A DNA stretch of 64,000 nucleotides, taken from assembly GCA_902168205.1 (NCBI GenBank), contig CABHOK010000002.1, positions 1 through 64,000 of the forward strand. Reading direction: 5' to 3'. Each line of letters begins with the position of its first letter. Within the stretch, counting starts at the first letter, position 1. The position numbers were made by a program, and so were the translations under genes. This DNA comes from an uncultured Chitinophaga sp. (GTDB taxonomy: Bacteria; Bacteroidota; Bacteroidia; Cytophagales; Cyclobacteriaceae). Below are positions 9,105-41,858 of the stretch, in pieces. The notes under the pieces were generated by a model. That model was given only the letters and a program-made list of their open reading frames with translations, was not told the DNA's origin and did no database searches.

Positions 9105-9133
9105 CGTTTTGTATTACCAATAACCCCAACCCC

Positions 9134-10644: not shown

Positions 10645-10675
10645 CGGGTATAGAATAATGCTATAGAACACTAAA

Positions 10676-10715: not shown

Positions 10716-10732
10716 ATAATCAATTATCAAAT

Positions 10733-10963: not shown

Positions 10964-10978
10964 AGTTTGAAATAGTTA

Positions 10979-11146
10979 TGAGTTGCGAGCTGCGAGGAAA
11001 GGCTGCTGGTTACTGAAAGTCTTCAGTAATGAATCGTTCACTACTTACTGGCATCACATTACCATCAGAAAAACAACCTGTAGCCAGAAGCCGGCAGCTT
11101 GCAACTTTTTTAATCTCGCAGCTCAAAGCTCGCGGCTCGCAGCTAA
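10979..11146. repeat. Dispersed repeat family A, copy 2 (3' end of TonB receptor)
   Basis: Two repeat-rich parts: GAGTTGCGAGCTGCGAGGAA with CTGCTGGTTACTG (10980-11015), and GTAGCCAGAAGCCGGCAGCT (11080-11099) followed by CTCGCAGCTCAAAGCTCGCG (11115-11134) and GGCTCGCAGCT. The second part begins 3 bp after the TAA stop of the TonB receptor on the minus strand. The words 'GCTGCGAG' and 'CCAGAAGCCxGCAGC' are shared with copy 1. Confidence 0.6.
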
Positions 11147-13504: not shown

Positions 13505-13810
13505 TCGATAGTGTTGTTGTAGCGATAATTTTTAATGGGCTGCTATACTACTGTGGAAAAAACTAAGATCAAACCCTATTTCACAGAAGCACATTTCTGT
13601 TCGTCACGAGTGGTAAATCACGTCTCTTTGCCTCCCGATCTGCATAAGTTGCTAATCAATGTTAGCCAGGCACGTAAAAAAGTCGTACGTAGGCCTTATT
13701 TTGCAAACGATTTTTTACGTATATCAATCCTTTTCTGAATATTTTTACGTATTAATACGTAATATATGAAGCCATTTACGTAAGTTTAGTACGTAAATAA
13801 TACGTAAAAA
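13505..13810. promoter_or_regulatory. narK/TonB-receptor intergenic region with a TACGTAA cluster
   Basis: This 306-bp gap holds TACGTA-type sites at 13671 (CACGTAA), 13686, 13715, 13745, 13756, 13777, 13790 and 13801. Those at 13745-13762 form a perfect 18-bp palindrome, TTACGTATTAATACGTAA. The last three are spaced 13 and 11 bp, and the final one ends 3 bp before the narK ATG. The 13505-13670 half shows nothing I can name; a 67-codon open frame there (13535-13738) looks spurious. The cluster is the densest of the three in the window. Confidence 0.7.
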
Positions 13811-26736: not shown

Positions 26737-27297
26737 CTATTGAGATAATACTGCGAGCGCTTTCTTCTTAAGCGCATCCATATCGGTAATCGGTATATGC
26801 ATCTCCTTGGCCAGCTCGTCCCACCTGCGCATACGGATGCTTACTTCAAACAACGGATCATGCTCGAAGGCATTCGCTTCTTCAGCAAGCATAACACCAC
26901 CCTGGTATTCGAGTGTCTTTTTACTGGCTTCACTTAGTTGTTCATAGTATTCAGGATACTTGAAGGTGAGGTAACGTTTCGCCTGTACATGATTTTCCAC
27001 AAGTCGCGCTATGCGCTCCGGAAATCCCTTCGACCGTAAATAATCACCACCAATCTTTTCGTGACTCTTTATACCATAGCCACCCATGTTGTTATCGGCC
27101 TGGATCATTACACAGATGTGTCCTATATCGTGAAAGAATGCCGCGAGTATAACTTCATCATCGTATCCTTCCTGTATAGCCAGGTCAGCCGCCTGCGACA
27201 TGTGCTCCAGCTGCGATACAGGCTCTCCGATATAATCCGCATCACCATACTTTTGATAGAGCCCGAAAACTTCTTCGATAACAGCCGGTATATTCAT
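26737..27297 (-). CDS. PhnZ-like HD-domain di-iron phosphonate oxygenase
   Basis: 186 aa. In characterised PhnZ a mixed-valence di-iron HD oxygenase cleaves the C-P bond of 1-hydroxy-2-aminoethylphosphonate to glycine and phosphate. The ligands match in spacing: His32, the HD pair His56-Asp57 (FFHDIGH), His79 (KSHEK), His103 (ENHVQAKRY) and a late Asp in RRWDEL. Tyr22 and Glu25 in YIGEPVSQLEH correspond to the substrate-gating Tyr24 and Glu27 of PhnZ. It is divergent from the phosphonatase-like hydrolase with 126 bp between them. No PhnY hydroxylase is in the window, so its substrate must come from elsewhere or differ; the family (TIGR03276-type) is tied to phosphonate degradation. Confidence 0.85.
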   Translation of the reverse strand: MNIPAVIEEVFGLYQKYGDADYIGEPVSQLEHMSQAADLAIQEGYDDEVILAAFFHDIGHICVMIQADNNMGGYGIKSHEKIGGDYLRSKGFPERIARLVENHVQAKRYLTFKYPEYYEQLSEASKKTLEYQGGVMLAEEANAFEHDPLFEVSIRMRRWDELAKEMHIPITDMDALKKKALAVLSQ

Positions 27298-27423
27298 AAG
27301 GGTAAGATTTATACCGAAGGTAAGAAGATATGTATTATCATCGCATTAAGTTTCTGTGTTTCGTTTTGAACGGTGATACAGGAATAGGACAAGTACTTTA
27401 TCTTTCTCACAAAAAATGAAACT

Positions 27424-28116
27424 ATGGCTATTGAACTGGTAGTATTCGACCTGGCAGGAACAACCGTGAAAGATAATAAAGATGTACACCGCGTATTGCA
27501 GCAGGCACTTCAACAGCACGATGTTATTATCTCCATTGAAGATGCCAACGATGTTATGGGGATTCCGAAACCTGTAGCCATCGAGCAGTTGTTGCGTAAA
27601 CGCTATACCGGAACGAAGTCCATCACTGAAAACTGGATCGATGAGATACACCGCATATTTGTTCAGCAGATGATCGATTTTTATAAATATGATTCATCGG
27701 TAGGTGAGAAAGACGGGACAAGCGATACGTTTCGAATGTTGAAGGAGAGGAAACTGAAGGTAGTGGTGGACACTGGTTTCGACCGACCGATAACTACACC
27801 TTTGCTGGATCGTCTTGGTTGGCAAAAAGCAAATCTCATCGATGCGAGTGTTACCAGCGATGAGGTACCGCGTGGCAGACCTTATCCGGATATGATCTTT
27901 CGCGCGATGGAACTTACAGGTGTACGCGATGCACGTGCTGTTGCTAAAGTTGGTGATACAGCTTCCGATCTTCAGGAGGGAAATGCAGCCGGTTGTTCAC
28001 TGGTGATTGGTGTTACGACAGGAGCCTTTTCGCGCGAGCAACTTTTAAAAGAGAAACATACACATCTCGTCAGTAGCTTACTGGATATACCTGAAATTAT
28101 AGCACAGCACTTTTGA
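27424..28116 (+). CDS. Phosphonatase-like HAD hydrolase (TIGR03351 type)
   Basis: 230 aa. Instead of the usual DxDxT, the first motif is DLAGTTVKD (Asp9), as in phosphonoacetaldehyde hydrolase PhnX. A cap-domain Lys in MGIPKPVAIEQ (about residue 47) sits where PhnX forms its Schiff base with the aldehyde. Motif 3 has Arg (RGRPYPDMIF) in place of Lys, and VGDTASDLQEG is motif 4. These features define the clade of phosphonatase-like enzymes that occur without PhnW and with FAD oxidases. It should release phosphate from phosphonoacetaldehyde or a hydroxylated analogue in the cytoplasm. A FAD oxidase of the partner family is at 33444. A TTATCTTTC element about 20 bp upstream may be the -7 box. 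Confidence 0.87.
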   Translation: MAIELVVFDLAGTTVKDNKDVHRVLQQALQQHDVIISIEDANDVMGIPKPVAIEQLLRKRYTGTKSITENWIDEIHRIFVQQMIDFYKYDSSVGEKDGTSDTFRMLKERKLKVVVDTGFDRPITTPLLDRLGWQKANLIDASVTSDEVPRGRPYPDMIFRAMELTGVRDARAVAKVGDTASDLQEGNAAGCSLVIGVTTGAFSREQLLKEKHTHLVSSLLDIPEIIAQHF

Positions 28117-28141
28117 TGTTTCGTTAAGTAAATGTTAACTT

Positions 28142-28164
28142 CATGTTAATCAACTTTTAACATG
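28142..28164 (+). promoter_or_regulatory. Inverted repeat over the 28167 gene start
   Basis: CATGTTAA (28142-28149) and TTAACATG (28157-28164) flank a 7-base spacer directly before the GTG start. A further ATGTTAAC lies about 10 bp upstream. It could be an operator or a translation-occluding stem. Confidence 0.4.
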
Positions 28165-28166
28165 AG

Positions 28167-28751
28167 GTGAAGCACACTATACTAGTTTGGCTGATCTTGT
28201 TTACTGTTGGTAAACTTGCAGCATACGATCGTGAATGGTATACCGGAGCCATAGTATTACAGACACAAGAGGTGCTAACCGGTGCAATTGGTATAGAGCC
28301 GGAGCATGGTATTGTGCTACACAAGCAAGGTGACCAGGTATATATATACCCTGCGCACCGTGTTCAATCGCTTCATTTCTTTGATAGCAAGGCAAACATC
28401 AACCGGAAGTATATATCGCTGCAGCATGGAACGTGGAGGCGTTGCCATTTATATGAAGTGGTTGTGAAAGGATCAGTCACTATCGTGCGCAGGGAGAAAC
28501 GCAATATATCTCCTGTATATTCGGATGCAGATAGTTTTATCTACTATATCTATACGGAAGGTGAGTTGGTACAGCTCCGTTCATTTCGCAAACAAATATA
28601 CCCGGCCCTTCTGCAGGCGGGAGGTGTTCAGTTCTCGATGTTTGTGCTTGAACAGCATTTGAACCCGAATGATGACGCACACGCCATCCGCATGGTGCAG
28701 TATTACAATGCGCTTGTGCTGAGTGATGAGACACTCGCCACCAAACGCTGA
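28167..28751 (+). CDS. Exported protein of unknown function
   Basis: 194 aa, not recognised. It begins with a short signal peptide (MKHTILVWLILFTVGKLAAY) read from a GTG start; the nearby ATG at 28162 leads into an immediate stop. The mature part is beta-rich with many Tyr residues (EWYTGAIVLQTQEVLTGAIG, HGIVLHKQGDQVYIYPAHRV), reminiscent of small Cytophagales periplasmic proteins. It follows the phosphonatase-like gene by 50 bp in the same direction and converges on the GAF/Cache sensor, with only 20 bp between the stops. It may be co-transcribed with the hydrolase, but no role in phosphonate use can be read from the sequence. Confidence 0.65.
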   Translation: MKHTILVWLILFTVGKLAAYDREWYTGAIVLQTQEVLTGAIGIEPEHGIVLHKQGDQVYIYPAHRVQSLHFFDSKANINRKYISLQHGTWRRCHLYEVVVKGSVTIVRREKRNISPVYSDADSFIYYIYTEGELVQLRSFRKQIYPALLQAGGVQFSMFVLEQHLNPNDDAHAIRMVQYYNALVLSDETLATKR

Positions 28752-28771
28752 TCAATCCTGAATTATATAGT

Positions 28772-31051
28772 TTACGCGCCTTTACGCAGATCGTTGATGC
28801 GTGTAGAGGCTTCCTCTTCTTCCATCGTAGAAAGAATCATCCAGTGAACGTCCGGTATATTCAGCGGTGCAAATGCATTGAGCATCTCCACGTTATGCTT
28901 GTTCTTCTCAATCGTGGTTCCGGTTTCTCCGTGCAGGCCGCTTTCCACAGATTTGAGTTTTATACTCTCCAGCAATATACTGGTATTCATTTTATCGATC
29001 TGCCGGATAATATTCTCATTATACCCGATCCGCTTGAGTCCGTTCAGATACTTCCGTTTATCTTCCAGTAACTGACGCGCTACCGAACGCAATTTGTAAT
29101 CGCTGCCGATAAGCAGTGTCTCACCGCTTTCGCCAAGTCCGTCATCGCGCCAGTTGTTATCACCGGTAAGAATCTGGTTTATCTTGTTGATCGGCATCTG
29201 GAACACGAGTATCCCCACCTTTTCATCGCCATCATATATAGGGCATGCTATAAACGATGCCGGTGTACGATACGATGGATCATACGGTTCAAAGTCTTCC
29301 AGCTTTACAAAGTCTTTATCGGTACTTTGAATCGCTTCTTTCACCACGCGACCAAAGTTCGTTTGATTATAGAGCCCTGTAACAAGACTGGTAGCAAAAT
29401 CAATTTCTTTAAACACACTATATACCATATCGCCTGTAACAGGATCGATGAGGAATATATCATAGTACCCGAATTTCTCGAGGTAGCTGCGCATTACCGG
29501 ATGGTAGTACGCGTGTATCTTGCTATACTCGCTGCCATCACCGGCATCGTCCAGTAATGATTTCTGGCCGGTAGGATGGGGGTTGTTTGATATATAGTGA
29601 TACTGTAAAATATCAGCTTGTACTTCCTTCGGGAAATAATGTTCCACACGTTCCAGTTGATCGGTGTTCTCTTTCAGGCGTGGTATAAATTCATCGGCAT
29701 AGTATCGCTGCAGGTTTGCTTTCATCGCTTGCAGTTCCTCGTCCGTTACACCCTGCTGTATGGCGGCAAAAGTTTTCCGGAATGACTTTACTGCATCGAT
29801 GATCATTTTATTTTCCGAGAACGTACGGATCTGATTGCGGATAATGTCGAAGTAATATTCTACGTTACGTTTCTTGGTAGAGTTAATGGACTTGAGCTGA
29901 TCAAATTTGGATTGATGGTTGAGCTCAGTCAATTGCTGGAACAATGCATTGTATTTCCGGCTGATCTCTTCCTGCGTAGCCTGCAGTTCTTCCTGGTTCT
30001 GCCGAAGCTCTTCTTCCTGCGCGCGCAGGTTTTCAGCTTGCTGATGCGATTCGTCCAGCAGGCGTTGTGTATGTTCGTTGGTACGGAATGAAAGTATAGT
30101 ATGTGCTATATTTTCCCCGATCTTTTCTACAAAGGCAATCTCGTGCGGCTGAAATGTTTTGAACGATGCAAGCTCTACGATACCGACTACATCTTCATTT
30201 ACTTTTAACGGTACGATCAGCAGGTTGCGCGGATTGGCTTCACCAAGTCCGGAAGTGATGCGTACAAAATCATCCGGTACTTCCTTCAGATATATAGTTT
30301 GTCTTTCGAGAAATGTCTGGCCGATGAGACCTTCACCGAGCGAAACCTTCTTTGTAAGATATTTAGTGCGGTTGAAAGCATAGCATGCCATCATCTCCAG
30401 GTATTGATCCCCGGTCTCGGAATCATTCAATACAAATATGGCACCCTGGTTTGCCTGCAGCAGATTTACCAGGTTCTTGGTAATGTCGTGTACCAGTGCA
30501 TCAATCTTTTTATTCGAGCGAAGAACTTCCACGAAGCGCGCGAGTCCATCGGTTGTCCAATTGCGTTTTTGATCCTCTTCTTTTACAACACGCAAGTTAT
30601 CTTTCAGTTTCAGCAGCGCATGTCCAAGCTGGTCATCATCACTCTCCGGCTGATACGATACTTCAAGGTTTCCGTTTCTGATTTCTTCTGCAAAATTGGT
30701 TTTATGTACCAGGTCGCTTTTCAGTGTGCCCAGCGATGAGGCTATATCTGCCAGTTCATCACGCCCGGTAACGGTGGCGTTGGTTCTGAATTTACCCGAG
30801 GCGAGGTCGGCGATTGTCTCATGTATCCCGAAAATCCGTGCTCGTGTCTTTTTAATGAAGGAAGCGAGGAGCATGCAGTACCCCACCAGCAGCAACACAG
30901 CGATGCCGGTGACCACGAGTTTTTCTGTAGCAAGTTTTTCGGTATTCCGTGTGGTGACGTAGACGAGGAGAATGATCACTAACAAAACGGGGGTCAACGA
31001 TAGCGACAAGAGTTTCCACTGGAACTGCCGCTTCTTTGGAATTATAGACAT
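28772..31051 (-). CDS. Membrane HAMP-GAF-Cache sensor without an output domain
   Basis: 759 aa. Two membrane segments near the N-terminus (about 14-33 and 43-65) are followed by a HAMP-like region (about 67-145), a GAF domain (about 165-320), a Gln/Glu-rich coiled coil (about 330-395) and a large C-terminal domain with the double-Cache pattern (FGYYDIFLIDPVTGDMVYSV; SFIACPIYDGDEKVGILVFQ). No histidine kinase, GGDEF, cyclase or methyl-accepting output is visible. With the only membrane segments at the N-terminus, the Cache part should lie in the cytoplasm, although Cache domains are usually extracytoplasmic. It is convergent with the 28167 gene. Ligand and partner are unknown. Confidence 0.75.
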   Translation of the reverse strand: MSIIPKKRQFQWKLLSLSLTPVLLVIILLVYVTTRNTEKLATEKLVVTGIAVLLLVGYCMLLASFIKKTRARIFGIHETIADLASGKFRTNATVTGRDELADIASSLGTLKSDLVHKTNFAEEIRNGNLEVSYQPESDDDQLGHALLKLKDNLRVVKEEDQKRNWTTDGLARFVEVLRSNKKIDALVHDITKNLVNLLQANQGAIFVLNDSETGDQYLEMMACYAFNRTKYLTKKVSLGEGLIGQTFLERQTIYLKEVPDDFVRITSGLGEANPRNLLIVPLKVNEDVVGIVELASFKTFQPHEIAFVEKIGENIAHTILSFRTNEHTQRLLDESHQQAENLRAQEEELRQNQEELQATQEEISRKYNALFQQLTELNHQSKFDQLKSINSTKKRNVEYYFDIIRNQIRTFSENKMIIDAVKSFRKTFAAIQQGVTDEELQAMKANLQRYYADEFIPRLKENTDQLERVEHYFPKEVQADILQYHYISNNPHPTGQKSLLDDAGDGSEYSKIHAYYHPVMRSYLEKFGYYDIFLIDPVTGDMVYSVFKEIDFATSLVTGLYNQTNFGRVVKEAIQSTDKDFVKLEDFEPYDPSYRTPASFIACPIYDGDEKVGILVFQMPINKINQILTGDNNWRDDGLGESGETLLIGSDYKLRSVARQLLEDKRKYLNGLKRIGYNENIIRQIDKMNTSILLESIKLKSVESGLHGETGTTIEKNKHNVEMLNAFAPLNIPDVHWMILSTMEEEEASTRINDLRKGA

Positions 31052-31163
31052 TTGAGATACTGAATTAACCCTTCAAAATACAAAAATTATAGCTGTTGGC
31101 GGGCACAAATAAAATTTTTTTAAAAGAATGGATAAAGAAAGTTTTACGCTTTAACATACGCCC

Positions 31164-32489
31164 TTAGTACATGCGTTTGTGTTTAAAGTGGAAGTAGAGC
31201 ATGGAACCGGCAATCAGAAGTGTGCCGGCCGCGGAGATAATATAGCCTGAATAGATAAAGACCTTGAGCCAGCTCACCGATGCATAGCCGAACTCTTTGA
31301 AGAAAAGTATACTGACGCTCCCCAGATAGCCAAACGAATCGGCCACATACATAATGAATCCAACGGTGCCGATATATTGAAAGGCCGCAATGAGCCGGTC
31401 GAAAAAGATACTGTTGAAAGGAACATAACCCATATAAAGACCGAGACCGATCAGGATCATCCATACCGGCGGTGTGATGATGTGTTGCTCGAACAGGAAT
31501 GTACTGATGCCAATTAGGATCATGCCGGCTATGATAATTACGTGATTGATCATGAGCGCCAGTTGATTGTTCCGTATGATCATGATACTGCCCATAATTA
31601 TAAGTACGGCAATGGATACGGGTACTTCGGTAGCCGTAAAGATTTCGGGCGAATTGCCATAGCCTAATGTCTTCCATACCTCCGCTGAAAAGTTATCCCT
31701 GAAATCGCGAAAGATGGTAAGCAACATATAGCCGAGTACAAACAGAATTATACCCGGTAAAAATGTAGTGATGAATTTTTTTCGTTCAGATAAGTCCATG
31801 GGTTGCCGGCGGGTTCGCAGTTGTTCGTCCCGTGCAGAAGGCGGAGGAACTTTATCGAGCAGGTATAAAAACACGAGTAACGGTATACTATAGATGCAGC
31901 ACGTAACAAAAGGCATCCACGTTTCCGATACACCCCAGTCGCGTATCAGATAGGCCCCGGTAGAACGACACAGGCCTGAGGAAAAAATGAAACTTACGGA
32001 AAGCGAGGCCCCCAGTACTTCTGTCATTCTTCTTCCTTCGAGATAACCGAATACCATGCCCCAGATCATACCCAACGGTAAACCATTGGTGAAAAGGAAA
32101 ATGATATTATAGGGAGCTGGCGTTATAGCGAAGAGCAACCACGAAGCACCGGCTATACTCACTAGAATTAATATACCAACCGAGCGAGAATGTGCTTTTA
32201 ATTCTGAGATCACTTTGATACCGATGAATTTAGACATGCCATAGCCCACCACCTGGAAAATTACCAGCCATACTTTATAGCTTACACCGGCATAGAAAAT
32301 TCCTTCGAACGAAGCTGCTGCAAAAGTTTTCCGAAATGCATACACACAGGTATATAAACAGAATGCAGCAATAGAGGTATAGATGGTGAACCAGAAACCA
32401 TTGGCCTGCCGAAGCCACTGTGTTATAGGATGCTCACCGGAGGATGATACCTTGCTCGTTGTAGCGGAAAGATTGCCAGCGGCCTTCAT
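31164..32489 (-). CDS. DUF5690-family MFS-like permease
   Basis: 441 aa, about 12 membrane segments (for example IYTSIAAFCLYTCVYAFRKT at about 36-55, then VWLVIFQVVGYGMSKFIGIK). The YAFRKTFAA stretch with the later VFGYLEGRRMTEVLGASLSV resembles DUF5690, a Bacteroidota permease family related to organophosphate transporters. The first codons overlap the PHP gene by 56 bp, so the two are translationally coupled. Its position between phosphonate-related genes suggests it imports a phosphonate or its product, but the substrate is not shown. Few alternative starts exist before the first membrane segment, so the overlap is probably real. Confidence 0.78.
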   Translation of the reverse strand: MKAAGNLSATTSKVSSSGEHPITQWLRQANGFWFTIYTSIAAFCLYTCVYAFRKTFAAASFEGIFYAGVSYKVWLVIFQVVGYGMSKFIGIKVISELKAHSRSVGILILVSIAGASWLLFAITPAPYNIIFLFTNGLPLGMIWGMVFGYLEGRRMTEVLGASLSVSFIFSSGLCRSTGAYLIRDWGVSETWMPFVTCCIYSIPLLVFLYLLDKVPPPSARDEQLRTRRQPMDLSERKKFITTFLPGIILFVLGYMLLTIFRDFRDNFSAEVWKTLGYGNSPEIFTATEVPVSIAVLIIMGSIMIIRNNQLALMINHVIIIAGMILIGISTFLFEQHIITPPVWMILIGLGLYMGYVPFNSIFFDRLIAAFQYIGTVGFIMYVADSFGYLGSVSILFFKEFGYASVSWLKVFIYSGYIISAAGTLLIAGSMLYFHFKHKRMY

Positions 32490-33282
32490 GCAAAATGGTT
32501 AAAGTTTTAAATCCGATTTGGTTTAACAAAACAGCCGTGTTGGCAAACTGGTTAACGAGGTCATCGGGGTGATGTGCATCGCTGCTCAGGGTAACAGGTA
32601 TATTTTTCTGAAGTATATATTCGAGTATACGCGGCCCGGGATAGGTAGTAGAAGATTTTTTCTGATAGATTCCGCGGGTGTTTACTTCAATGATGGCTCC
32701 GCTTGCGGCAATGGTATCAATCGTTCGTTTTACTTCGTGTTGATACCACGCATCGTTTTCATTAAAAAGTTTGCTGTCTATATTCTGTATCTTGATCTTG
32801 TCGAGGTGTCCTACAACGGTAGGGCAGGCGGTCGCGATCATTTCGCGGGTAAGTTCATAGTAACGTACCAGTGTATCACGAATGTTGTTTTTGAAAATCT
32901 TTTCATAACCCTCCTGGAAGAATGCGTGCGTACCATCAATCTCCCAGCGTGTTCCATCCGGCAGCTGATCAACAAAGTGAACAGAGCCAACGGTATAGTC
33001 AAGTTTATCGCGGAAATCATTCGGTGAAATCACCCCGGGTATAAAATCGATCTCAAGACTGGTATATATTTCCGTGCGCGAATCTTTTTTGAAGGCATTT
33101 ACTTCGTGCAGGTAGGCATCAAGACTTTCAGGTTTCATGCACCACTTGCAGGGAAACGGTAATGGAGCATGTGATGAAAGACCAAGACTGATCATATTCA
33201 GTTCTTCAGCCTTGCGGATGTAATCCTGTATCGGACCTTTACCATCACAGTATGCGTTGTGTGTATGAAAATTAGACCACAT
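32434..33282 (-). CDS. PHP-domain phosphoesterase (histidinol-phosphatase-like)
   Basis: 282 aa, with the PHP metal motifs NFHTHNAYCDG (about 4-14), SSHAPLPFP, GSVHFVD, GHLDKIK and SDAHHP, the set of a trinuclear-metal phosphatase of the HisK type. The start MWSNFHTHNAYCDGKG is the usual N-terminus. In many bacteria this family removes phosphate from histidinol phosphate. No his genes are near; here it overlaps the DUF5690 permease and is divergent from the FAD oxidase, so a role on phosphonate- or phosphate-ester intermediates is possible. The activity on a particular substrate cannot be told from the sequence. Confidence 0.83.
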   Translation of the reverse strand: MWSNFHTHNAYCDGKGPIQDYIRKAEELNMISLGLSSHAPLPFPCKWCMKPESLDAYLHEVNAFKKDSRTEIYTSLEIDFIPGVISPNDFRDKLDYTVGSVHFVDQLPDGTRWEIDGTHAFFQEGYEKIFKNNIRDTLVRYYELTREMIATACPTVVGHLDKIKIQNIDSKLFNENDAWYQHEVKRTIDTIAASGAIIEVNTRGIYQKKSSTTYPGPRILEYILQKNIPVTLSSDAHHPDDLVNQFANTAVLLNQIGFKTLTILHEGRWQSFRYNEQGIILR

Positions 33283-33366
33283 ATACAGGTTTAGCGTTCA
33301 AAGTTTATTGTTAAATGTTGCAAGAAAAACAATAAAGCGCAACCTTAACAAAATGATAAACCTGGT

Positions 33367-33409
33367 GATGGATCGTAAATCCATCCAAACATCAACCTTT
33401 GATGCAGAA
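33367..33409 (+). promoter_or_regulatory. FAD oxidase promoter with palindrome and shared 15-bp block
   Basis: The block ACCTTTGATGCAGAA (33395-33409) is identical to 35511-35525 before susC. Its first part looks like a degenerate TAnnTTTG -7 box. Just upstream, GATGGAT (33367-33373) and ATCCATC (33379-33385) flank CGTAA, a likely operator. This suggests that oxidase and susC are co-regulated. Confidence 0.55.
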
Positions 33410-33443
33410 CAAAAATTTTGAAGAAGACTATAATTAACTGACT

Positions 33444-34568
33444 ATGGATCGCTCAGCAGATATTGCTATTGTAGGTGGAGGCATCGTAGGACTCGCGCAT
33501 GCCTATATGGCACTTCGTAAAGGCTATAAGGTTGTTTTATTTGAACGGGAACAATTTGCTGTGGGCGCTTCGGTTCGGAACTTCGGACTGGTGTGGCCGA
33601 TCGGACAGCAGCCCGGTGTTGGTCTGGACCGTGCGTTGCGGGCGCGTCAGCACTGGCACGAAGTAGCGGCACAAGCCGGGTTCTGGATAAAGTCTAATGG
33701 ATCATTACACCTCGCTTACCATGAGGATGAATGGAGTGTGTTGCAAGAGTTCATGGAACTTTACAAAGACACAGGCTATCAATGTCGTTTGCTGAATGCA
33801 TCGGAGGTGGTGGACAAATCTCCGGTAGTTCGTAAAGACAACCTATATGGCGGCTTGTGGAGTGAGACCGAGGGAACAGTATATGCACGCGAAGCCATTC
33901 GAAGAATACCGTTGTGGCTGCAGGAGAAATACGGGTTGATACTGCGCTTCGGACATGTAGTAACGGAAGTTGATGTGCCGCATATAAAGACCGCGCGTGA
34001 AAGCTGGCGTGCCGAAAAAGTATTGATATGCAGTGGTGCTGATTTTGAGACACTATATCCGGCTATATATGATCAACACCCGCTGTCCAAGTGTAAGCTG
34101 CAAATGATGAAGGCCGTAACGGAAAAGCCTGTGAGCATAGGCCCTACGTTGTGTGCCGGTCTCACGCTACGCCATTACGCTGCCTTTGGAAAATGCCCGT
34201 CACTGAAAAAACTCGATGCCCGTTACGATCAGCAATCCGAAGAATTTAAAAAGCATGGTATACATGTATTACTGGCCCAGAACGAAGCCGGTGAACTGAT
34301 TATAGGAGACTCGCATCATTACAGCAAAACCGTAGAACCTTTCGACTCCGAACATGTCAATGATGTTATCATCAATTATCTGAATTCCTTTACCAACCTC
34401 GGCAACTTAAAAATTACCGAACGCTGGCACGGTATATATCCCAAGTTACAAGGAAATATCAGTCTCGTAGTAGAGCCCGAACCCAACGTAACCATCATCA
34501 ACGGCCTCGGAGGCGCAGGCATGTCGTTGAGCTTTGGCCTCGCGGAGGAAATTATTGAAAGATTGTGA
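33444..34568 (+). CDS. FAD-dependent oxidoreductase, TIGR03364 type (aminophosphonate oxidase)
   Basis: 374 aa. The dinucleotide fold IAIVGGGIVGLAHAYMALRK (about 7-26) opens a DAO-type flavoprotein, and SVRNFGLVWPIGQQPG (about 44-59) is characteristic of the subclass associated with phosphonatase-like hydrolases. NGLGGAGMSLSFGLAEEI (about 352-369) closes the FAD site. The expected reaction is oxidative deamination of an aminophosphonate, such as 2-aminoethylphosphonate, its N-methyl form or a hydroxy form, to the aldehyde that the HAD enzyme at 27424 would hydrolyse. It sits beside a PHP gene and before the XRE regulator. The exact substrate is not readable. Its last codons (ERL) and stop fall in a family B repeat. 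Confidence 0.82.
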   Translation: MDRSADIAIVGGGIVGLAHAYMALRKGYKVVLFEREQFAVGASVRNFGLVWPIGQQPGVGLDRALRARQHWHEVAAQAGFWIKSNGSLHLAYHEDEWSVLQEFMELYKDTGYQCRLLNASEVVDKSPVVRKDNLYGGLWSETEGTVYAREAIRRIPLWLQEKYGLILRFGHVVTEVDVPHIKTARESWRAEKVLICSGADFETLYPAIYDQHPLSKCKLQMMKAVTEKPVSIGPTLCAGLTLRHYAAFGKCPSLKKLDARYDQQSEEFKKHGIHVLLAQNEAGELIIGDSHHYSKTVEPFDSEHVNDVIINYLNSFTNLGNLKITERWHGIYPKLQGNISLVVEPEPNVTIINGLGGAGMSLSFGLAEEIIERL

Positions 34569-34706
34569 AAATTTAAAAATTGGAAGATTCAAAGATTGGA
34601 AGATTGAAAATTGGATTGTCTTTAATAAATTTTTCAATCTTACAATTTTCTAATCTTCTAATTCCCCTAATCTTCCAATCTTCCAATTTTACAATCTTAC
34701 AATTTC
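34566..34706. repeat. Dispersed repeat family B, copy 2 (between convergent genes)
   Basis: The gap is nearly all GATTGGAAGATT-type words: ATTGGAAGATTCAAAGATTG at 34579 and GGAAGATTGAAAATTGG, then their inverted forms CTAATCTTCCAATCTTCCAA (34667-34686). The two halves could pair as a long stem between the oxidase and the XRE gene. Both stop codons lie within these words (AGATTGTGAAAATT, and AATTGTAAGATTG on the minus strand). Confidence 0.65.
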
Positions 34707-35275
34707 GAAGAGATGAAGTATAGCACGAGCATCACTACCTTCTTCTTCGAGCGGTTTATGGGGAGGTGGGGTACGGTTGCATCGAAATATATAGAGTCAC
34801 CTTCTTCAAGTATAATTACTTCGTTGTTGATGTGATATTCACAGTTTCCGCTGATGATATATTTGAACTCGTAGCCATCGGTGGTGGTAGGTTTGCCGGT
34901 AGCGCCTGGTTCAAGCGTCAGCAGTACCGATTCCATCGTGCAGTTCGTAACGTTTTGTGACAGTATAAATTGGTAATTGAATCCGTGGCGGCCTTCACGT
35001 TCCATCGGTGTATAGGCATCTTTCTTTACCAGCAGGTAATCTTTACCGTTGCTCAATACCATGTCCTGAAAGAATTCTTTCAACGAGATGTCAAGCGATT
35101 GAATGATACTGACAAATACCGGGAGCGAAGGAACGGTACGCGAGTTTTCTACTTTGGACAGCAGTCCTTTACTTACATTGGAGCGTGTGGCGAGTTGTTG
35201 TATGGTGAGATTCTTTTCGAGTCGTGTGGCTCGTATTTTTTGTGCTATGCGCGATACAACTTCATTGTCGATCAT
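34697..35275 (-). CDS. XRE-cupin transcriptional regulator
   Basis: 192 aa. The N-terminal HTH_3 domain (about 10-64; RLEKNLTIQQLATRSNVSKG, then LLSKVENSRTVPSLPVFVSI) is joined to a C-terminal cupin (about 110-185; LTLEPGATGKPTTTDGYEFK, DGYEFKYIISGNCEYHINNE). Such MerR-free XRE-cupin proteins control amino-acid, polyamine or phosphonate metabolism and sense small ligands with the cupin. It is divergent from susC with 336 bp between them and convergent with the FAD oxidase. A TGTTTAC/GTAAACA palindrome lies directly upstream of its own start, so it is likely autoregulated and may control the oxidase and susCD. Confidence 0.9.
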   Translation of the reverse strand: MIDNEVVSRIAQKIRATRLEKNLTIQQLATRSNVSKGLLSKVENSRTVPSLPVFVSIIQSLDISLKEFFQDMVLSNGKDYLLVKKDAYTPMEREGRHGFNYQFILSQNVTNCTMESVLLTLEPGATGKPTTTDGYEFKYIISGNCEYHINNEVIILEEGDSIYFDATVPHLPINRSKKKVVMLVLYFISSKL

Positions 35276-35611
35276 ACCAGGGAATGTTTACTGATTGTAA
35301 ACATATAAAATATCCCATCGTTGTTGAACCGTGCGAAAATCGCTGTTGGCATTTATTAAATCAATGTTACCTACCGAAACGGTTGTCACAGGTATATTTC
35401 GGGGTTTCGTATTTGTAAATCCTGATTTCGTTAATAGAAGTTTCATTTCTTGTCAGAAAGTTTAATTCATACGTAACGTTTGTCTAAACGCTACTTTAAT
35501 CAGAATACTCACCTTTGATGCAGAATTTTAAGTGCATGCTATACCTATAGTGTATATACCTATATATAGGCCGTGCACCTGTGGATTAACAACCCCTAAC
35601 CCTTTAAACGT
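35276..35611. promoter_or_regulatory. Divergent XRE/susC regulatory region
   Basis: This 336-bp gap holds ATGTTTAC (35284-35291) and GTAAACAT (35297-35304), a likely XRE operator. Next to susC there is CGTTT-GTCT-AAACG (35477-35490) and the block ACCTTTGATGCAGAA (35511-35525), identical to the oxidase promoter. A single TACGTAA is at 35470, probably chance. The 35530-35575 stretch is a run of TATACCTATAG-like words with no clear meaning. The middle part (35310-35460) shows nothing else. Confidence 0.55.
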
Positions 35612-38600
35612 ATGAATCAAACTCTACTGAAGAATTCAAATTCTTTAGGAACAGCACTGAGCCGCGCATCGCTTATACTGGCCGCGTGGCTTTTTGCTTT
35701 AGGTGCGTATGCACAGACAACCGTTTCCGGTCGCATTACCTCCGGTGAAGACTCTTCACCGCTGCCCGGAGTGAACATCCTGGTAAAAGGAACATCCATC
35801 GGAACGATATCCGATGTTGAAGGCCGGTATAGTATAAATGCGCCTTCGACTGATGCTACCCTTGTATTTTCTTTTGTAGGCTATATCTCGCAGGAAGTTC
35901 CGCTTGCCGGAAGAACTTCTGTAGATATAGTATTGGCAACCGATGCCACCCAACTTTCTGAAGTAGTGGTTACTGCGTTGGGTATTGAAAAAGACAAAGC
36001 TAAAGTTGGTTACGCCGTTCAGGATGTAAAAGGTTCAGACCTGGTAAAGGCAAGAGAACCCAACCCGGTTAACTCCCTGGTAGGAAAAGTGGCCGGTTTA
36101 ACAGTTGCTCCGTCTGCAGAAATACTGGGCGCTCCGCAATTATACCTGCGCGGTAAGAAGCCTTTGTTTGTTGTTGATGGTGTACCGATCCAGTCGGATA
36201 CCTGGAACATCAGTGCCGATGATATTGAAAGCTATACGGTATTAAAAGGACCAGCAGCCTCTGCGTTGTACGGTTCACGCGGTATGTATGGTGCTATTCA
36301 AATTACCACGAAACGCGGTTCAAAAGACAAGCGTGGTTTTTCGGTAGAGTTCAATTCTTCTACCATGGTGGAGAATGGTTTTCTTACTATACCGAAAGTA
36401 CAAAGCGAGTATGGTCCTGGCGATCACGGTAAATATGCGTTTGGCAATGGTAAAGGCGGAGGAAAGAATGACTCTGACTATGATATCTGGGGACCTAAAT
36501 TTGAAGGACAGCTGATCCCTCAATACGATGGCGAATATACTCCGGGTACGGAATATACTACTACGTTTGCCGATGGTACAACCTATACCGGTAATATAAG
36601 ACCTACACAGTGGGTAGCGCGCGGTAAAGATAACCTGCAACGCTTTCTGCAAACCGGAGTTGTGGCAACCAACAACCTGGCGGTATCAACTTCCGGAGAG
36701 AATCACGATCTTCGTTTTTCTTACTCGCACAACTATCAGCGCGGACTCGTGCCGAACACGGATCTCAATGCCGATAACTTTAATATAGCGGCCGGAGTAA
36801 ATCTCTCTCCGAAAATCAAATTCGAATCCAACATCAACTACAACCGTCAGTACACCGAAAATATACCCGATGTGAACTACGGTCCGAACAGTATGATCTA
36901 TAACATTATTCTGTGGGGCGGTGCTGATTGGGATGTTGACGACATGAAGCAAATATGGCAACCTGGTAAAGAAGGTATCCAGCAGGTATATGCAGAATAT
37001 ACCCGCTATAACAACCCGTGGTTTCTGGCGAAGTACTGGTTAAGAGGACACTACAAGACCGATGTATATGGCTATATGTCATTGAAAGCTGAAATCGCTC
37101 CCGGACTTGAAGTAATGGGACGCACGCAGATCAATACGTATGATCTTCTGCGCACAGAGAAATTCCCATACTCGGCAACTGTATACGGACGCGAACAGGC
37201 AAAAGGTGATTACCGCGAAGACAAGCGTCAGCTCTTCGAGAATAACACTGATATCATGCTGACGTTCGACAAGAACATCACGCCTGATTTTACACTCAAG
37301 GCTTCACTCGGTGGTAACCTGCGTACGTTTACTTACCGTTCAAGCTATACCACAACGGACTACCTGAGCGTTCCCGGTCTTTACAACTTTACAAACTCAC
37401 TGAACCCGATCCGTGCGTATAACTTCAATTCTACCATGCAGGTGGGTAGCGGTTATGGCTATATCGATCTTGACTATCAAAACTTCCTGGCATTGTCCCT
37501 AACAGGTCGTATGGATAAACAGTCTACTTTGCCAAAAGGAAACAATTCGTTCTTCTATCCATCGGCTTCGTTGAGTGCTATACTTTCGGAAAAAATTTCT
37601 TTACCGGAGGTTATATCATTCCTGAAAGTAAGAGGATCGTATGCCCGCGTGGGTGGTGCCCTTACAACGTCTACCATTGCTCCGTCCTATATATACTCAG
37701 GCGATGGACAGAGTCCGTTGGGATACGGTGCTGAATACTATACTCCTTACGATGGACCAAGCTTCGTAAATACAGAAGCATATCGTGGCGGTAAACTATT
37801 CAATAATATACCAGGGGCATACTATAGCGATCGTCTGTCGAATGAAAACCTGGAACCATCATTCAGTTCTACATGGGAAACCGGATTGGACATCAAGTTT
37901 TTACAGAACCGTTTAGGATTTGACGTAGCCTACTTCCAGAGTCTGGATGGTCCGGGTATATTTAACAAGCAGATATCTGAAACCAGTGGTTATACAACCA
38001 TCGTGTCTAATGGTATAAAAACACTTCGCAAAGGTTGGGAAGTTACCATCAGCGGTACGCCTATACAAACCAACGAAGGTTTCACCTGGAATGTATTGGT
38101 GAACGGATCAACCTATAAAGAGTACCTGAATGAAATTGCTCCGGGCATCGATCGTATTGAAGCGAGCTTCTTCAATGGAAGTATAAATGGTAACAACAGC
38201 TTTATATACAAGGGAGATCGCATCGATAAATACTATGGTGAAGTGTTTCTGAAAGATCAACAGGGAAATCTGATCAACGATGATAGCGGAAGACCGATTG
38301 CCAATCCTATACCACAATATCTCGGTAATCTTAATCCTGATCTGGTGTGGGGTATCAACAACAAGTTCAGCTATAAAAATATCAGCTTCAGCTTCCAGTT
38401 TGACGGACGCATCGGTGGTAAGATTGTTGACTACGTACAACGTCAGACGTATCGCGGTGGTCGCCACATCAATACAACTGAAGGTGCTATGGGCGAAGCC
38501 CGCTACCAGGATTACCTGGGTAACAAATCGTGGGTTGGTCCTGGCGTAAGTGTAGCGGGTGGAAACATCCAGACCGATGATAACGGTAACATCATTAACT

Positions 38601-38929
38601 ACGATGAGTTACAATTTACACCGAATACAACGGCTACATTTTTACAAGACTGGATCAGTCGCTATTACTCAAAAGAAGAAGCTAACCTCGTGAGCCGTTC
38701 GTATGCCAAGCTGCGAGAAGTAGTAGTAACCTATAATTTCCCTTCTGCTATGTTGGAGCGTACGTTTATCCGCAATGCATCGGTATCACTGATAGCACGT
38801 AACCTGCTATACTTTGCAGAACGTAAAGATCTTGATATCGATCAGTACGGTAACAACCTGTCGGGGTATTCCACCTTGCAGACACCTACTACAAGACGTT
38901 ACGGTATAAACATCAACATCACTTTCTAA
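35612..38929 (+). CDS. SusC/RagA-type TonB-linked outer-membrane transporter
   Basis: 1105 aa, the normal length of SusC proteins. A signal peptide ends around residue 35, followed by a carboxypeptidase-like regulatory domain (TTVSGRITSGEDSSPLPGVN, about 36-115), a SusC-type plug (LSEVVVTALGIEKDKAKVGY, then LKGPAASALYGSRGMYGAIQ at about 210-230) and a barrel ending in RRYGININITF. SusC proteins form the barrel of an outer-membrane pair with SusD and take up oligomers such as glycans or peptides. susD starts 10 bp after it. The neighbouring phosphonate enzymes suggest an aminophosphonate-bearing molecule as cargo, but carbohydrate specificity cannot be excluded. Confidence 0.93.
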   Translation: MNQTLLKNSNSLGTALSRASLILAAWLFALGAYAQTTVSGRITSGEDSSPLPGVNILVKGTSIGTISDVEGRYSINAPSTDATLVFSFVGYISQEVPLAGRTSVDIVLATDATQLSEVVVTALGIEKDKAKVGYAVQDVKGSDLVKAREPNPVNSLVGKVAGLTVAPSAEILGAPQLYLRGKKPLFVVDGVPIQSDTWNISADDIESYTVLKGPAASALYGSRGMYGAIQITTKRGSKDKRGFSVEFNSSTMVENGFLTIPKVQSEYGPGDHGKYAFGNGKGGGKNDSDYDIWGPKFEGQLIPQYDGEYTPGTEYTTTFADGTTYTGNIRPTQWVARGKDNLQRFLQTGVVATNNLAVSTSGENHDLRFSYSHNYQRGLVPNTDLNADNFNIAAGVNLSPKIKFESNINYNRQYTENIPDVNYGPNSMIYNIILWGGADWDVDDMKQIWQPGKEGIQQVYAEYTRYNNPWFLAKYWLRGHYKTDVYGYMSLKAEIAPGLEVMGRTQINTYDLLRTEKFPYSATVYGREQAKGDYREDKRQLFENNTDIMLTFDKNITPDFTLKASLGGNLRTFTYRSSYTTTDYLSVPGLYNFTNSLNPIRAYNFNSTMQVGSGYGYIDLDYQNFLALSLTGRMDKQSTLPKGNNSFFYPSASLSAILSEKISLPEVISFLKVRGSYARVGGALTTSTIAPSYIYSGDGQSPLGYGAEYYTPYDGPSFVNTEAYRGGKLFNNIPGAYYSDRLSNENLEPSFSSTWETGLDIKFLQNRLGFDVAYFQSLDGPGIFNKQISETSGYTTIVSNGIKTLRKGWEVTISGTPIQTNEGFTWNVLVNGSTYKEYLNEIAPGIDRIEASFFNGSINGNNSFIYKGDRIDKYYGEVFLKDQQGNLINDDSGRPIANPIPQYLGNLNPDLVWGINNKFSYKNISFSFQFDGRIGGKIVDYVQRQTYRGGRHINTTEGAMGEARYQDYLGNKSWVGPGVSVAGGNIQTDDNGNIINYDELQFTPNTTATFLQDWISRYYSKEEANLVSRSYAKLREVVVTYNFPSAMLERTFIRNASVSLIARNLLYFAERKDLDIDQYGNNLSGYSTLQTPTTRRYGININITF

Positions 38930-38939
38930 TTCACGCATC

Positions 38940-40511
38940 ATGAAAAATATACGATACTTACTGGCACTTGCCTTCCTGGTGATATTTACCCGATGCCAGG
39001 ATTTTGATGAGATCGAAAAGAATCCGAACCAGACTATTACGGCACCTCCGTCATTGATATTAACCGGTATACAAAACGATATGCTGGAAGATCCGTGGTC
39101 ACTTGAACACCGCTGGAATCAATACTGGTGCTGCAATTATAATTACTATGGTAATAATGAGTATAGCTGGACCAATGCTACGCTGAAGTTTCAGACATTG
39201 AAAAATGTTTTGAAGATGGAAGAGGAAGCTCTGAATACAGGCGCGAAAGCACTCAACCCATATTCAGCGCTTGGTAAATTTTTCCGTGCCTACTTCTATG
39301 TACGCATGACGCAGCAGGTAGGCGATCTGCCGCTGGAAGAAGCGTTGCAGGGATTGGAGAATACAACTCCTGCTTATGCTACACAGAAAGATATATACCT
39401 GAAAGCACTGGAATGGCTGGAAGGAGCCAACAATGACCTGGCTTCATTGATCGCAGCAGGTACTCCGGCACCAACGTCTCCCCTGGGAGATATATTCGCC
39501 GGAGATATATACCTCGGTAACAGTCTGCAGGCGTGGCAGAAAATTGTAAATGCATTTACGCTGCGTGTGCTGATCAGCCTGAGCAAGAAAGAAAGCGATG
39601 CTGATCTGAATATCAAAAACCGTTTCAATGCTATTGTCTCAAACCCGGCCAAGTATCCGTTGCTGGCGAGTGCAGCTGATAATTTGCAGATATACTATAA
39701 CGGTTCAACCAGTTTATACCCAACCAACCCGGGCAGCCGTGGTCTTGATAAAGGCCGTTATAATATGGCTGAGATGTATGTAAAAACGTTGACAGACCTG
39801 GAAGATCCGCGCGTGTTTGTAACGTGTAATCCTGCGGAAGCAAAATTAAAAGCAGGTATAGCGTTTGACAGTTTTGATGCGTATGTAGGAGCAAGCTCAG
39901 CAGAAAGTCTTGACGACATGTCATCAAAAGCGGGTAAAGGTGAATACTCGTATGCCAACCAGTTACGTTACTACGGTACGTATGCTGGTCCTGAACCTGC
40001 GCTGATGTTAGGATATGCTGAGCAGAACTTTGCGATAGCAGAAGCGATCAACCGCGGATGGATCACCGGTGATGCAGCAACGTATTATAACAACGGGATC
40101 ATCGCTTCCATGGAAGTATATGGTATAAAGGACGGATCATCCCTGAAGGTAACAACCGCGGATGATGTTGTGTTGGGTGAAGTTATACCATCGGTTACTG
40201 ACTACCTGGATAACGCTGCAGTAAAGTATGCCGGTAACAATGCAACCGGACTTACGCAGATACTCACACAAAAGTATCTTGCCTTCTTCCAGAACTCTGG
40301 ACTGGAAGCATACTATAACCAGCGCAGAACCGGTATACCTGCCTTCGCAGAAGGGACGGGTACTGGTAACAACGGTGTAATTCCGAAACGCTGGTTATAC
40401 CCAAGCTCGGAAGAGACAACCAACTCCGAGAATCTGGACAAAGCTATACAAAGTCAGTTCGGAGCGATGGGTGATAGCAAGAATGCGGAGATCTATATAA
40501 TTAAGGATTGA
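38940..40511 (+). CDS. SusD/RagB-family surface lipoprotein
   Basis: 523 aa. The signal peptide ends in a lipobox (VIFTRC, Cys19), so it is anchored to the outer membrane. The N-terminal TPR-like helices (WSLEHRWNQYWCCNYNYYGN, then LGKFFRAYFYVRMTQQVGDL at about 112-131) and the late RRTGIPAFAEG segment fit the SusD-like_2 type, which usually works with amino-acid or small ligand receptors as well as glycans. It starts 10 bp after susC, so the two form one unit. Its last codons and TGA stop merge into a family B repeat. A terminator-like hairpin at 40561-40585 follows. Confidence 0.92.
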   Translation: MKNIRYLLALAFLVIFTRCQDFDEIEKNPNQTITAPPSLILTGIQNDMLEDPWSLEHRWNQYWCCNYNYYGNNEYSWTNATLKFQTLKNVLKMEEEALNTGAKALNPYSALGKFFRAYFYVRMTQQVGDLPLEEALQGLENTTPAYATQKDIYLKALEWLEGANNDLASLIAAGTPAPTSPLGDIFAGDIYLGNSLQAWQKIVNAFTLRVLISLSKKESDADLNIKNRFNAIVSNPAKYPLLASAADNLQIYYNGSTSLYPTNPGSRGLDKGRYNMAEMYVKTLTDLEDPRVFVTCNPAEAKLKAGIAFDSFDAYVGASSAESLDDMSSKAGKGEYSYANQLRYYGTYAGPEPALMLGYAEQNFAIAEAINRGWITGDAATYYNNGIIASMEVYGIKDGSSLKVTTADDVVLGEVIPSVTDYLDNAAVKYAGNNATGLTQILTQKYLAFFQNSGLEAYYNQRRTGIPAFAEGTGTGNNGVIPKRWLYPSSEETTNSENLDKAIQSQFGAMGDSKNAEIYIIKD

Positions 40512-40536
40512 AAGATTAGAAGATTGAAGTATTAAA
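40505..40536. repeat. Dispersed repeat family B, copy 3 (3' end of susD)
   Basis: GGATTGAAAGATTAGAAGAT followed by TGAAGTATTAAAG. The susD stop (TGA in GGATTGAAAG) lies inside it, giving the C-terminal IIKD. Confidence 0.55.
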
Positions 40537-40560
40537 GATAAAAGCTTAAGCTTTAGAATT

Positions 40561-40592
40561 CAGCCCGGGTAAATACTCGGGTTGTTTTCTTT
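40561..40592 (+). terminator. susCD terminator
   Basis: CAGCCCGGGTA (40561-40571) pairs, with G-U wobbles, with TACTCGGGTTG (40574-40584), and a T-rich tract (TTTTCTTT) follows. This matches a Rho-independent terminator 50 bp after the susD stop, so the hydrolase gene at 40734 probably has its own promoter. Confidence 0.75.
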
Positions 40593-40733
40593 ATAACAAA
40601 TCACATTTTTTTTAAGGTCAGCACTTGCCGGATTAAAGAAATTATAACCTGCATCATACTTGCGTCATTATTCTATAACAGTAGTATAAATCTATACTCA
40701 TCATGAGGTAATACTGTTGTTGCATCTTCGTGC

Positions 40734-41858
40734 ATGTTTAAAAGGTTTTTGCAGTGTTGTCTGGTTGGTTGTTGTTCCTGCGTGTTTGCGCAGGAACGCC
40801 AGACAGAAAACCTGGTACTCGTAACCCTTGATGGTTTCCGTTGGATTGAATTGTTTGAAGGTGCAGACTCTGCTTTAATATATAGTAAAGATTTTGTGCA
40901 CGATAGGAATGTTGTGAGTCAGTTTTGGGATGCATCTCCCGTTGTGCGAAGAGAGAAACTCTTGCCATTTTTCTGGAAGGTGATTGGCGTTGAAGGACAG
41001 TTATACGGCAACCGTAATTTTGGTAATCGTGTAAATTGTGCCAACCCGTATTGGTTCTCGTACCCCGGCTATAGCGAAATGCTCGTGGGCTTTGTTGACA
41101 AACGCATCAAATCCAACAACAAAATCGCGAATCCAAACTATACCGTGCTGAACTATATATATGATCAGCCGGCTTTCACCAACCGCGTTGCCGTATTTTC
41201 TACGTGGGATGTTATCCCGGCCGTTGTGCGCGAGCAATCTTCCGGTATATATACCAATGGAGGTGAGGAAAGCGCAAGCGGTGCGATGTTGTCTGAACAG
41301 GAAAAACTCCTTAACGATTTACAACGCGTTGTAAAAAATCCATATGGCGCGCGGTACGATGCTTTTACTTTTCAGTATGGCGTTGAGTATTTGAAGCGGG
41401 CTCGTCCGCGGGTACTTTTCATCAGTCTCGATGAAACCGATGAACACGGACATGGCGGCCGATATGATGAATATCTGAAAGCAGCACATCGCACCGATGA
41501 CATGATTGGTAGACTATGGAACTGGATCCAGTCAGACGAACAGTATAAGAATAAAACAACGTTACTCATCACTACCGACCACGGTCGTGGATATGCCGGT
41601 AAAAAAGGTTGGAAAGGTCATGGAAGGCTAATTGCCGGGTCGAGTCAGATGTGGTTTGCTGTGATTGGTCCGGATACACCTGCACTCGGTGAAATGAAAA
41701 ACGAAGGACAGTATTTTCAAAAACAAATTGCCAAAACAGCAGGAGCTTTCCTCGGATTGCATTATGAAAATGTAGAGCCGGTAGGAGAGGTTGTGGAGAG
41801 TATGTTTATTCCCGAACTGCTCTCCGATAATCATGCCACCATACGCAGTAAAAAATAA
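40734..41858 (+). CDS. Secreted alkaline-phosphatase-superfamily hydrolase
   Basis: 374 aa with a signal peptide rich in Cys (MFKRFLQCCLVGCCSCVFAQ). The metal site begins LVTLDGFRWIEL (about 29-40), the candidate nucleophile is a Ser in NPYWFSYPGYSEML (about 102-115), and later ligands lie in SLDETDEHGHGG and TTDHGRG. The family covers type I phosphodiesterases, phosphatases, sulfatases and phosphonoacetate hydrolase. Placement after the SusCD pair suggests it cuts phosphate or phosphonate from lipids or glycans outside the inner membrane before uptake. It could also be an ordinary nucleotide pyrophosphatase. A terminator follows it. Confidence 0.83.
   Translation: MFKRFLQCCLVGCCSCVFAQERQTENLVLVTLDGFRWIELFEGADSALIYSKDFVHDRNVVSQFWDASPVVRREKLLPFFWKVIGVEGQLYGNRNFGNRVNCANPYWFSYPGYSEMLVGFVDKRIKSNNKIANPNYTVLNYIYDQPAFTNRVAVFSTWDVIPAVVREQSSGIYTNGGEESASGAMLSEQEKLLNDLQRVVKNPYGARYDAFTFQYGVEYLKRARPRVLFISLDETDEHGHGGRYDEYLKAAHRTDDMIGRLWNWIQSDEQYKNKTTLLITTDHGRGYAGKKGWKGHGRLIAGSSQMWFAVIGPDTPALGEMKNEGQYFQKQIAKTAGAFLGLHYENVEPVGEVVESMFIPELLSDNHATIRSKK

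Follow-up and report, generated by a model that had tools for sequence, protein, structure and literature searches.

A putative aminophosphonate-utilization locus of Bacteroidota with a linked SusCD pair and DUF5690 as candidate permease

The systems that come closest to the locus described here are the PbfD-PhnX route, the PhnY-PhnZ pathway, the permease AepP and the PusCD systems of Flavobacterium. PbfD enzymes oxidize N-methyl-2-aminoethylphosphonate (N-methyl-AEP) and 2-aminoethylphosphonate (AEP) to phosphonoacetaldehyde, and PbfD1 carries the annotation TIGR03364 (PMC10590968, in its available portion). A YxxE loop and H..HD..H..H..D ligands have been described for PhnZ and TmpB (PMC8177086, excerpted text), and the known AEP permease AepP is GlpT-like (PMC8316502, excerpted text). 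In the literature that we found, phosphonate uptake by Bacteroidota is little described, and SusCD is mainly treated as glycan machinery. Here, we analyzed a locus at positions 26737–41858 of a 64,000-nucleotide stretch of DNA (the window; contig CABHOK010000002.1, assembly GCA_902168205.1) from an uncultured Chitinophaga sp. that GTDB places in the Cyclobacteriaceae. The locus combines a PbfD-type oxidase, a PhnX-like HAD hydrolase and a PhnZ-type HD oxygenase with a SusCD pair, a DUF5690 protein, an XRE-cupin regulator and a putatively secreted hydrolase. The link between the SusCD pair and the phosphonate genes is not incidental, and the locus as a whole is quite probably a utilization system for aminophosphonates that reaches from the outer membrane to the cytoplasm.

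In the proposed system, the secreted hydrolase of the alkaline-phosphatase superfamily would trim ester-linked AEP or hydroxy-AEP units, and SusCD would bind and import the trimmed product, as its linkage, its phylogeny and a shared operator suggest. DUF5690, an SLC37/GlpT-like permease candidate by fold and gene context, would then carry the product over the inner membrane. In the cytoplasm, the PbfD-type oxidase is expected, from the chemistry of its family, to convert AEP or N-methyl-AEP to phosphonoacetaldehyde, from which the PhnX-like HAD protein is expected, from family chemistry and conserved residues, to release phosphate and acetaldehyde. The PhnZ-type HD oxygenase is expected to convert (R)-1-hydroxy-2-aminoethylphosphonate ((R)-hydroxy-AEP) to glycine and phosphate, probably as a parallel route and not as a step in the PbfD-HAD chain. 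Uptake and degradation genes would be controlled by the XRE-cupin protein. We lean slightly toward a fuller formulation, in which DUF5690 would be a new aminophosphonate-permease family with an organophosphate-antiporter fold. Jointly with an XRE-cupin regulator that reads TGTTTACT-N3-AGTAAACA and a SusCD clade of its own, it would define a phosphonate-utilization locus with which members across the Bacteroidota harvest AEP and its hydroxy form from lipid or glycan sources.

Like the PbfD-PhnX route (PMC10590968, in part), the locus has a TIGR03364 oxidase and a phosphonatase but no PhnW; unlike that route, its hydrolase is of the PhnX-like TIGR03351 form and is coupled to SusCD, DUF5690, the HD oxygenase and XRE-cupin. 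The word "Bacteroid-" is absent from the main text of that paper. With the PhnY-PhnZ pathway the locus shares a PhnZ-type HD oxygenase that has the YxxE loop and the diiron ligands, but no PhnY was assigned in it, and HD and PbfA look like alternatives in loci of this kind (see below). PusCD of Flavobacterium is induced by phosphate depletion, and its accessible description (PMC8115612) names neither a phosphonate substrate nor a permease family or an operator, whereas the present loci span several families. The same accessible text mentions SusCD beside phosphonate genes, in one sentence and a figure, so this kind of system was already known, and the suggestion in the preliminary description of this DNA that a SusCD system for phosphonates would be new is weakened accordingly: the idea is not wholly new. 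The enzymes are known as well; what is new is the recurrent system, a candidate operator and a likely permease. The recurrent locus as a whole, the palindrome, the dedicated SusD clade and a role for DUF5690 were not found in print among the matches listed. With its dedicated SusCD, its candidate operator and, as candidate permease, a domain of unknown function, the recurrent locus opens the uptake steps to direct testing.

Gene content, recurrence and the SusCD pair

The family-named genes listed below had been given in the preliminary description; all are open reading frames at these coordinates, and each matched its family in family-profile searches.

26737..27297, minus strand: HD-domain oxygenase, PhnZ type (TIGR03276, 217.3 bits; cut-off 214.6)
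27424..28116, plus strand: PhnX-like HAD hydrolase (TIGR03351, 213.9 bits; cut-off 218.9)
28142..28164: inverted repeat CATGTTAA-N7-TTAACATG, between the HAD gene and the gene for the small secreted protein
28167..28751, plus strand: small protein, putatively secreted (judged by eye), found in 11 loci close to HAD and DUF5690 genes
28198..28216: operator-like palindrome TGTTTACTGTTGGTAAACT, 32 bp inside the small secreted gene
28772-31051: gene for a 759-aa sensor-like protein, recognized outside the window in three same-genus loci only and excluded from the core set
31164..32489, minus strand: DUF5690, putative permease of major facilitator superfamily (MFS) fold (PF18943, 547.8 bits)
32434..33282, minus strand: PHP-domain (HisJ family) phosphoesterase, overlapping the DUF5690 gene (TIGR01856, 119 bits)
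33394..33402: AACCTTTGA element upstream of pbfD
33444..34568, plus strand: PbfD-type FAD oxidase (TIGR03364, 438 bits; cut-off 285.1)
34697..35275, minus strand: XRE-cupin transcription regulator (HTH_3 and Cupin_2)
35285..35303: operator-like palindrome TGTTTACTGATTGTAAACA in the xre/susC gap, 9 bp ahead of the XRE start codon
35510..35518: CACCTTTGA element upstream of susC, common to the pbfD promoter region
35612..38929, plus strand: SusC TonB-dependent transporter (TIGR04056, 490 bits; cut-off 368.25)
38940..40511, plus strand: SusD-like surface protein (SusD-like_2; PF12771, 203 bits)
40734..41858, plus strand: hydrolase of the alkaline-phosphatase superfamily, putatively secreted (PF01663 Phosphodiest, 37 bits; weak Sulfatase match)

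The small protein at 28167-28751 had no family match in the profile libraries. The host genome is 7.3 Mb in size and 99.47% complete, and a profile search of all of it gave no match to the carbon–phosphorus (C-P) lyase protein PhnJ and only sub-cut-off matches to PhnW (best 56.4 vs 360.8 bits) and to phosphoenolpyruvate mutase (best 73.2 vs 319.55 bits). No PhnY was assigned within the locus; no search aimed at it was made in the remaining genome.

TIGR03364 was found in 17 of 59 genomes, the window's own included. Within ~10 kb of the oxidase in these 17 loci (own genome plus relatives; contig ends truncate L038 and L039) lie HAD in 15, DUF5690 in 13, XRE-cupin in 12, HD in 8, and SusC with SusD in 10, an association beyond chance. 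Mucilaginibacter lappiensis, Zobellia uliginosa and Fulvivirga kasyanovii are examples of culturable relatives with the locus. A survey of 296 genomes from the phylum found DUF5690 in 29, TIGR03364 in 23 and the two together in 21 (Fisher 1e-23); 15 of these 21 pairs are ≤1.2 kb apart, two more ≤10 kb, and four are distant or on different contigs. At the threshold used, the oxidase is lacking in three same-genus genomes (G002, G003 and G006), and hence the locus has a patchy distribution even among members of one genus. Stretches of Parachryseolinea silvisoli (L125) and Dawidia soli (L127), at ~9100-13100, keep XRE-cupin, DUF5690 and a chloride-channel neighbor; oxidase, HAD, HD and SusCD were not found in them, and they are possibly remnants of the locus.

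To define a background for SusCD linkage, we assembled 118 non-redundant DUF5690 loci (those from relatives plus the best 80 of 386 named GTDB loci), of which 73 have HAD, PbfD or PhnW nearby and are called phosphonate-linked, or linked; the 45 unlinked loci served as the background. In the window, a TIGR04056 SusC is followed by SusD. Both genes lie within 9.5 kb in 42/73 linked loci compared with 3/45 unlinked ones (Fisher 7e-9), and in 36/56 compared with 2/29 when both flanks extend at least 7 kb. SusCD pairs are abundant, with at least 25 SusC in the window's own genome, and an ordinary glycan locus might adjoin a phosphonate cluster by chance. We consider this highly improbable, given the linkage above, the recurrence of the association in several families among which the order of the genes differs, and the presence of the palindrome ahead of enzyme genes in other genomes; nor was a glycoside hydrolase found among the genes scanned against family libraries, although most unlabeled neighbors were not scanned.

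The phylogeny of SusD agrees with this linkage. When 44 SusDs from phosphonate loci were placed in one tree with 23 paralogues (built by a quick method, with midpoint root), two label changes sufficed, compared with a mean of 19.5 after shuffling, and two paralogues fell among the phosphonate-locus SusDs. The window SusD falls in a clade of 24, all from phosphonate loci (SH-aLRT 100). Since the sequences had been picked with a profile built from the same family, a second SusD search was made regardless of neighbors. Nine of its 12 non-self homologues scoring at least 290 bits adjoin phosphonate genes, although for two of the nine (G046 and G156) this is an HD protein only, in G156 with XRE-cupin as well; the other three (G065, G308 and G324) are not beside phosphonate genes. 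None of the eight next-tier homologues fetched (140-226 bits) is beside phosphonate genes, and two of them have the same secreted hydrolase family, whereas SusDs in about the same range from G347, G107 and G259 do sit in phosphonate loci. The preliminary description had allowed that SusCD might prove unlinked in relatives; the neighborhood survey and the tree found it linked, and linkage, SusD clade and recurrence together uphold its assignment of SusCD to the phosphonate system.

Several observations nevertheless weigh against a SusCD pair dedicated to phosphonates. SusC and SusD are lacking within 9.5 kb in 31/73 linked loci (20/56 with both flanks ≥7 kb). Five further loci hold a weaker SusC-profile match only, and that of L100 is another type of TonB receptor. 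Moreover, SusCD occurs with the same hydrolase family and without phosphonate genes in G065, G341 and G329 (L267, L272 and L273), and such pairs may thus serve organophosphates generally. Metallophosphoesterases, beta-propeller PF04185 phosphoesterases and phosphocholine phospholipase C also recur, in 7, 9, 13 and 5 linked loci (identities taken from representatives), and in Flavobacterium PusCD systems adjoin mono- and diesterases (PMC8115612, in the accessible part). These findings would suit a general uptake module for organophosphates (phosphodiesters or lipid head groups), formed by SusCD and the secreted hydrolase, with the phosphonate enzymes handling only part of what it imports. We think this rather unlikely, as the clade around the window SusD holds phosphonate-locus members only and three-quarters of the closest homologues in the independent scan adjoin phosphonate genes. 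The recurring phosphoesterases would fit a release of lipid head groups.

The secreted hydrolase itself has a signal-like N-terminus by eye and an F108-S109-Y-P-G-Y motif that is invariant in 13/13 aligned sequences, and its family occurs in 44/73 linked vs 6/45 unlinked DUF5690 loci. No solved relative was found by sequence at E 0.01. Its structural model (pLDDT 78.1) matched YejM, LtaS, sulfatases and NPPs in Foldseek with TM about 0.4; as these matches are at superfamily level only, no substrate is given to the protein, which is possibly a phosphodiesterase or a phosphonate-ester hydrolase.

We also noted that L100, L101 and L109 have a ~955-aa TonB receptor near DUF5690 with a SusC-profile score of 463-511 bits and no recognized SusD; that of L100 matches TIGR01782 at 484 bits. 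In L268 (from G156), a GlpQ-like phosphodiesterase, named by eye, lies at 13593-14417 after XRE-cupin, HD and SusCD genes.

DUF5690 as candidate inner-membrane permease

An AlphaFold2 model of DUF5690 (pLDDT 89.3) was compared with solved structures. Its five best matches in the PDB are SLC37 glucose-6-phosphate transporters, followed by sialin, with GlpT (1pw4) at rank 46, and its closest MFS family is therefore one of organophosphate antiporters. The invariant R53 aligns with GlpT R45, and R261 and R264 are near, not in, the column of R269, in a profile match that is not significant; we take R45 and R269 of GlpT to be phosphate-binding arginines. Like AepP, for which AEP uptake is proposed in the available text of PMC8316502, and like the GlpT/SLC37 antiporters, DUF5690 has an MFS fold, and SLC37 is the structure that it resembles most. 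Unlike GlpT and SLC37, it forms a separate sequence family without a significant GlpT match; AepP was not itself compared.

Gene context points the same way, as related gene sets in other families of Bacteroidota suggest DUF5690 as the inner-membrane importer. DUF5690 also adjoins PbfD and a weaker HAD match in two Caulobacteraceae loci (L194 and L204), and the L194 oxidase scores 425.7 bits to TIGR03364. On the other side of the balance, sialin, NorA and GLUT score closely behind SLC37, which makes the preference for SLC37 modest; the profile match to GlpT has a probability of 2.5%; and neither HAD nor PbfD nor PhnW was seen at 45 of the 118 DUF5690 loci. A sequence search against solved structures matched no PDB chain, and no paper on DUF5690 was found in the literature library searched. 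Taken together, fold and gene context suggest that DUF5690 is likely an aminophosphonate importer. DUF5690 with PbfD or PhnW might serve as a marker in genome surveys of phosphorus cycling, as such loci would escape a search limited to PhnW or C-P lyase.

Enzymes and likely substrates

The best solved relative of the HD protein is PhnZ (4mlm, E 1.1e-44), and its YxxE loop (Y22/E25) and residues H32, H56-D57, H79, H103 and D160 are invariant in 15/15 aligned homologues. The HAD protein scores 5 bits below the TIGR03351 cut-off, hence the label PhnX-like and not that of a member by that cut-off. Its D9-x-A-G-T, Lys49, R152, D178 and D182 are invariant in 19/19 aligned homologues, and K49 matches, in the alignment, the PhnX lysine replaced by R in chain 2ioh. 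Presumably, K49 is the Schiff-base cap lysine and DxAGT the nucleophile motif. Family chemistry and these residues support the earlier outline of aminophosphonate catabolism, in which oxidation to an aldehyde is followed by hydrolysis. For the oxidase, the wording of the preliminary description that the family was proposed to act on aminophosphonates is outdated: the available text of PMC10590968 establishes PbfD biochemically, so the role is more than a proposal. The PHP gene is found in 16/73 linked vs 3/45 unlinked DUF5690 loci.

Sister loci provide clues to the substrate. In L151 and L177, DUF5690 has PhnW, XRE-cupin and SusCD beside it, and in L141 and L146 it has PhnW and SusCD; all eight PhnW proteins tested matched TIGR02326 (452-588 bits, cut-off 400.8). 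Four of the 15 PhnW loci also carry PbfD; in most of the 15, PhnW therefore stands in for PbfD, and in some both are present. NF049939 recognized PbfA, an ammonia-lyase of (R)-hydroxy-AEP, in two of three proteins tested (715 and 700 bits). Both PhnZ and PbfA act on (R)-hydroxy-AEP. Among the 73 linked loci, HD occurs in 32, PbfA in nine and both in none (Fisher 0.004), so that the two look like alternatives, although PhnW is present in 7/9 PbfA loci and, with shared ancestry, may partly account for this exclusion. The presence of PhnW and PbfA in sister loci indicates AEP and (R)-hydroxy-AEP as substrates.

The score of the HAD protein, and the fact that we know of no assay for any protein of the locus, leave some room for oxidase, HAD and HD having a substrate that is not an AEP-type phosphonate. 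This is the least probable of the alternatives considered here: in sister loci, the same partners accompany PhnW and PbfA, whose substrates are AEP and (R)-hydroxy-AEP, and the active-site residues of HAD and HD are kept.

A candidate operator and its regulator

The XRE-cupin gene is present in 44/73 linked vs 4/45 unlinked DUF5690 loci. The palindrome core GTTTAC-N5-GTAAAC has exactly two sites in the 7.3-Mb genome, both in the window (28199 and 35286) and 7 kb apart, whereas a reversed control pattern has no exact site. Both window palindromes are kept in three same-genus relatives, the 28198 core being found in L030, L031 and L032. When all 4096 six-base arms were scanned at six spacings over 117,191 bases of sequence preceding cluster genes in 45 XRE-cupin loci, near relatives included, this palindrome ranked first (24/45 loci with ≤1 mismatch, 9 exact), and the runners-up (23 loci) were the same palindrome, shifted. 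With 8-base arms and ≤3 mismatches, there are 42 sites, of which 36, from 25 loci, are located upstream of a cluster gene; 335 permuted arms have a mean of 2.0 and a maximum of 11 such sites. Depending on the genome, near-copies precede the xre, susC, HAD, DUF5690, pbfD or hydrolase gene, and in two Mucilaginibacter loci the palindrome is ahead of both susC and HAD. The distribution suggests that the XRE-cupin protein binds the palindrome TGTTTAC-N5-GTAAACA.

Two findings count against such a role. The window has no palindrome (≤3 mismatches) before HAD, DUF5690 or pbfD, and the genome holds four other one-mismatch sites, three of which fall within open frames. At two mismatches, the 19-base form has 55 genomic sites vs 28 for the reversed control, and matches this weak were therefore not used. 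A palindrome at every enzyme gene of the window was rejected, as the only window sites are the one between xre and susC and the one within the small secreted gene.

The fourth one-mismatch site is at 6976 of contig C9 of the same genome (L280), ~100 bp before a TonB-receptor-like gene that is followed by a GlpQ-like glycerophosphodiesterase gene (7090-11382, both named by eye). These genes may be a second target of the XRE-cupin regulator.

A 15-base repeat, ACCTTTGATGCAGAA, precedes both pbfD and susC in the window. In relatives, it reduces to ACCTTTGA, which is kept before susC in 6/6 aligned sequences; before pbfD, it is exact in 3/5 aligned relatives, with one mismatch in a fourth. Rather than an operator, this repeat may represent a promoter element. 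Lastly, the perfect 8-base inverted repeat CATGTTAA/TTAACATG was also found in L030 and L032, and with other spacing in L112.

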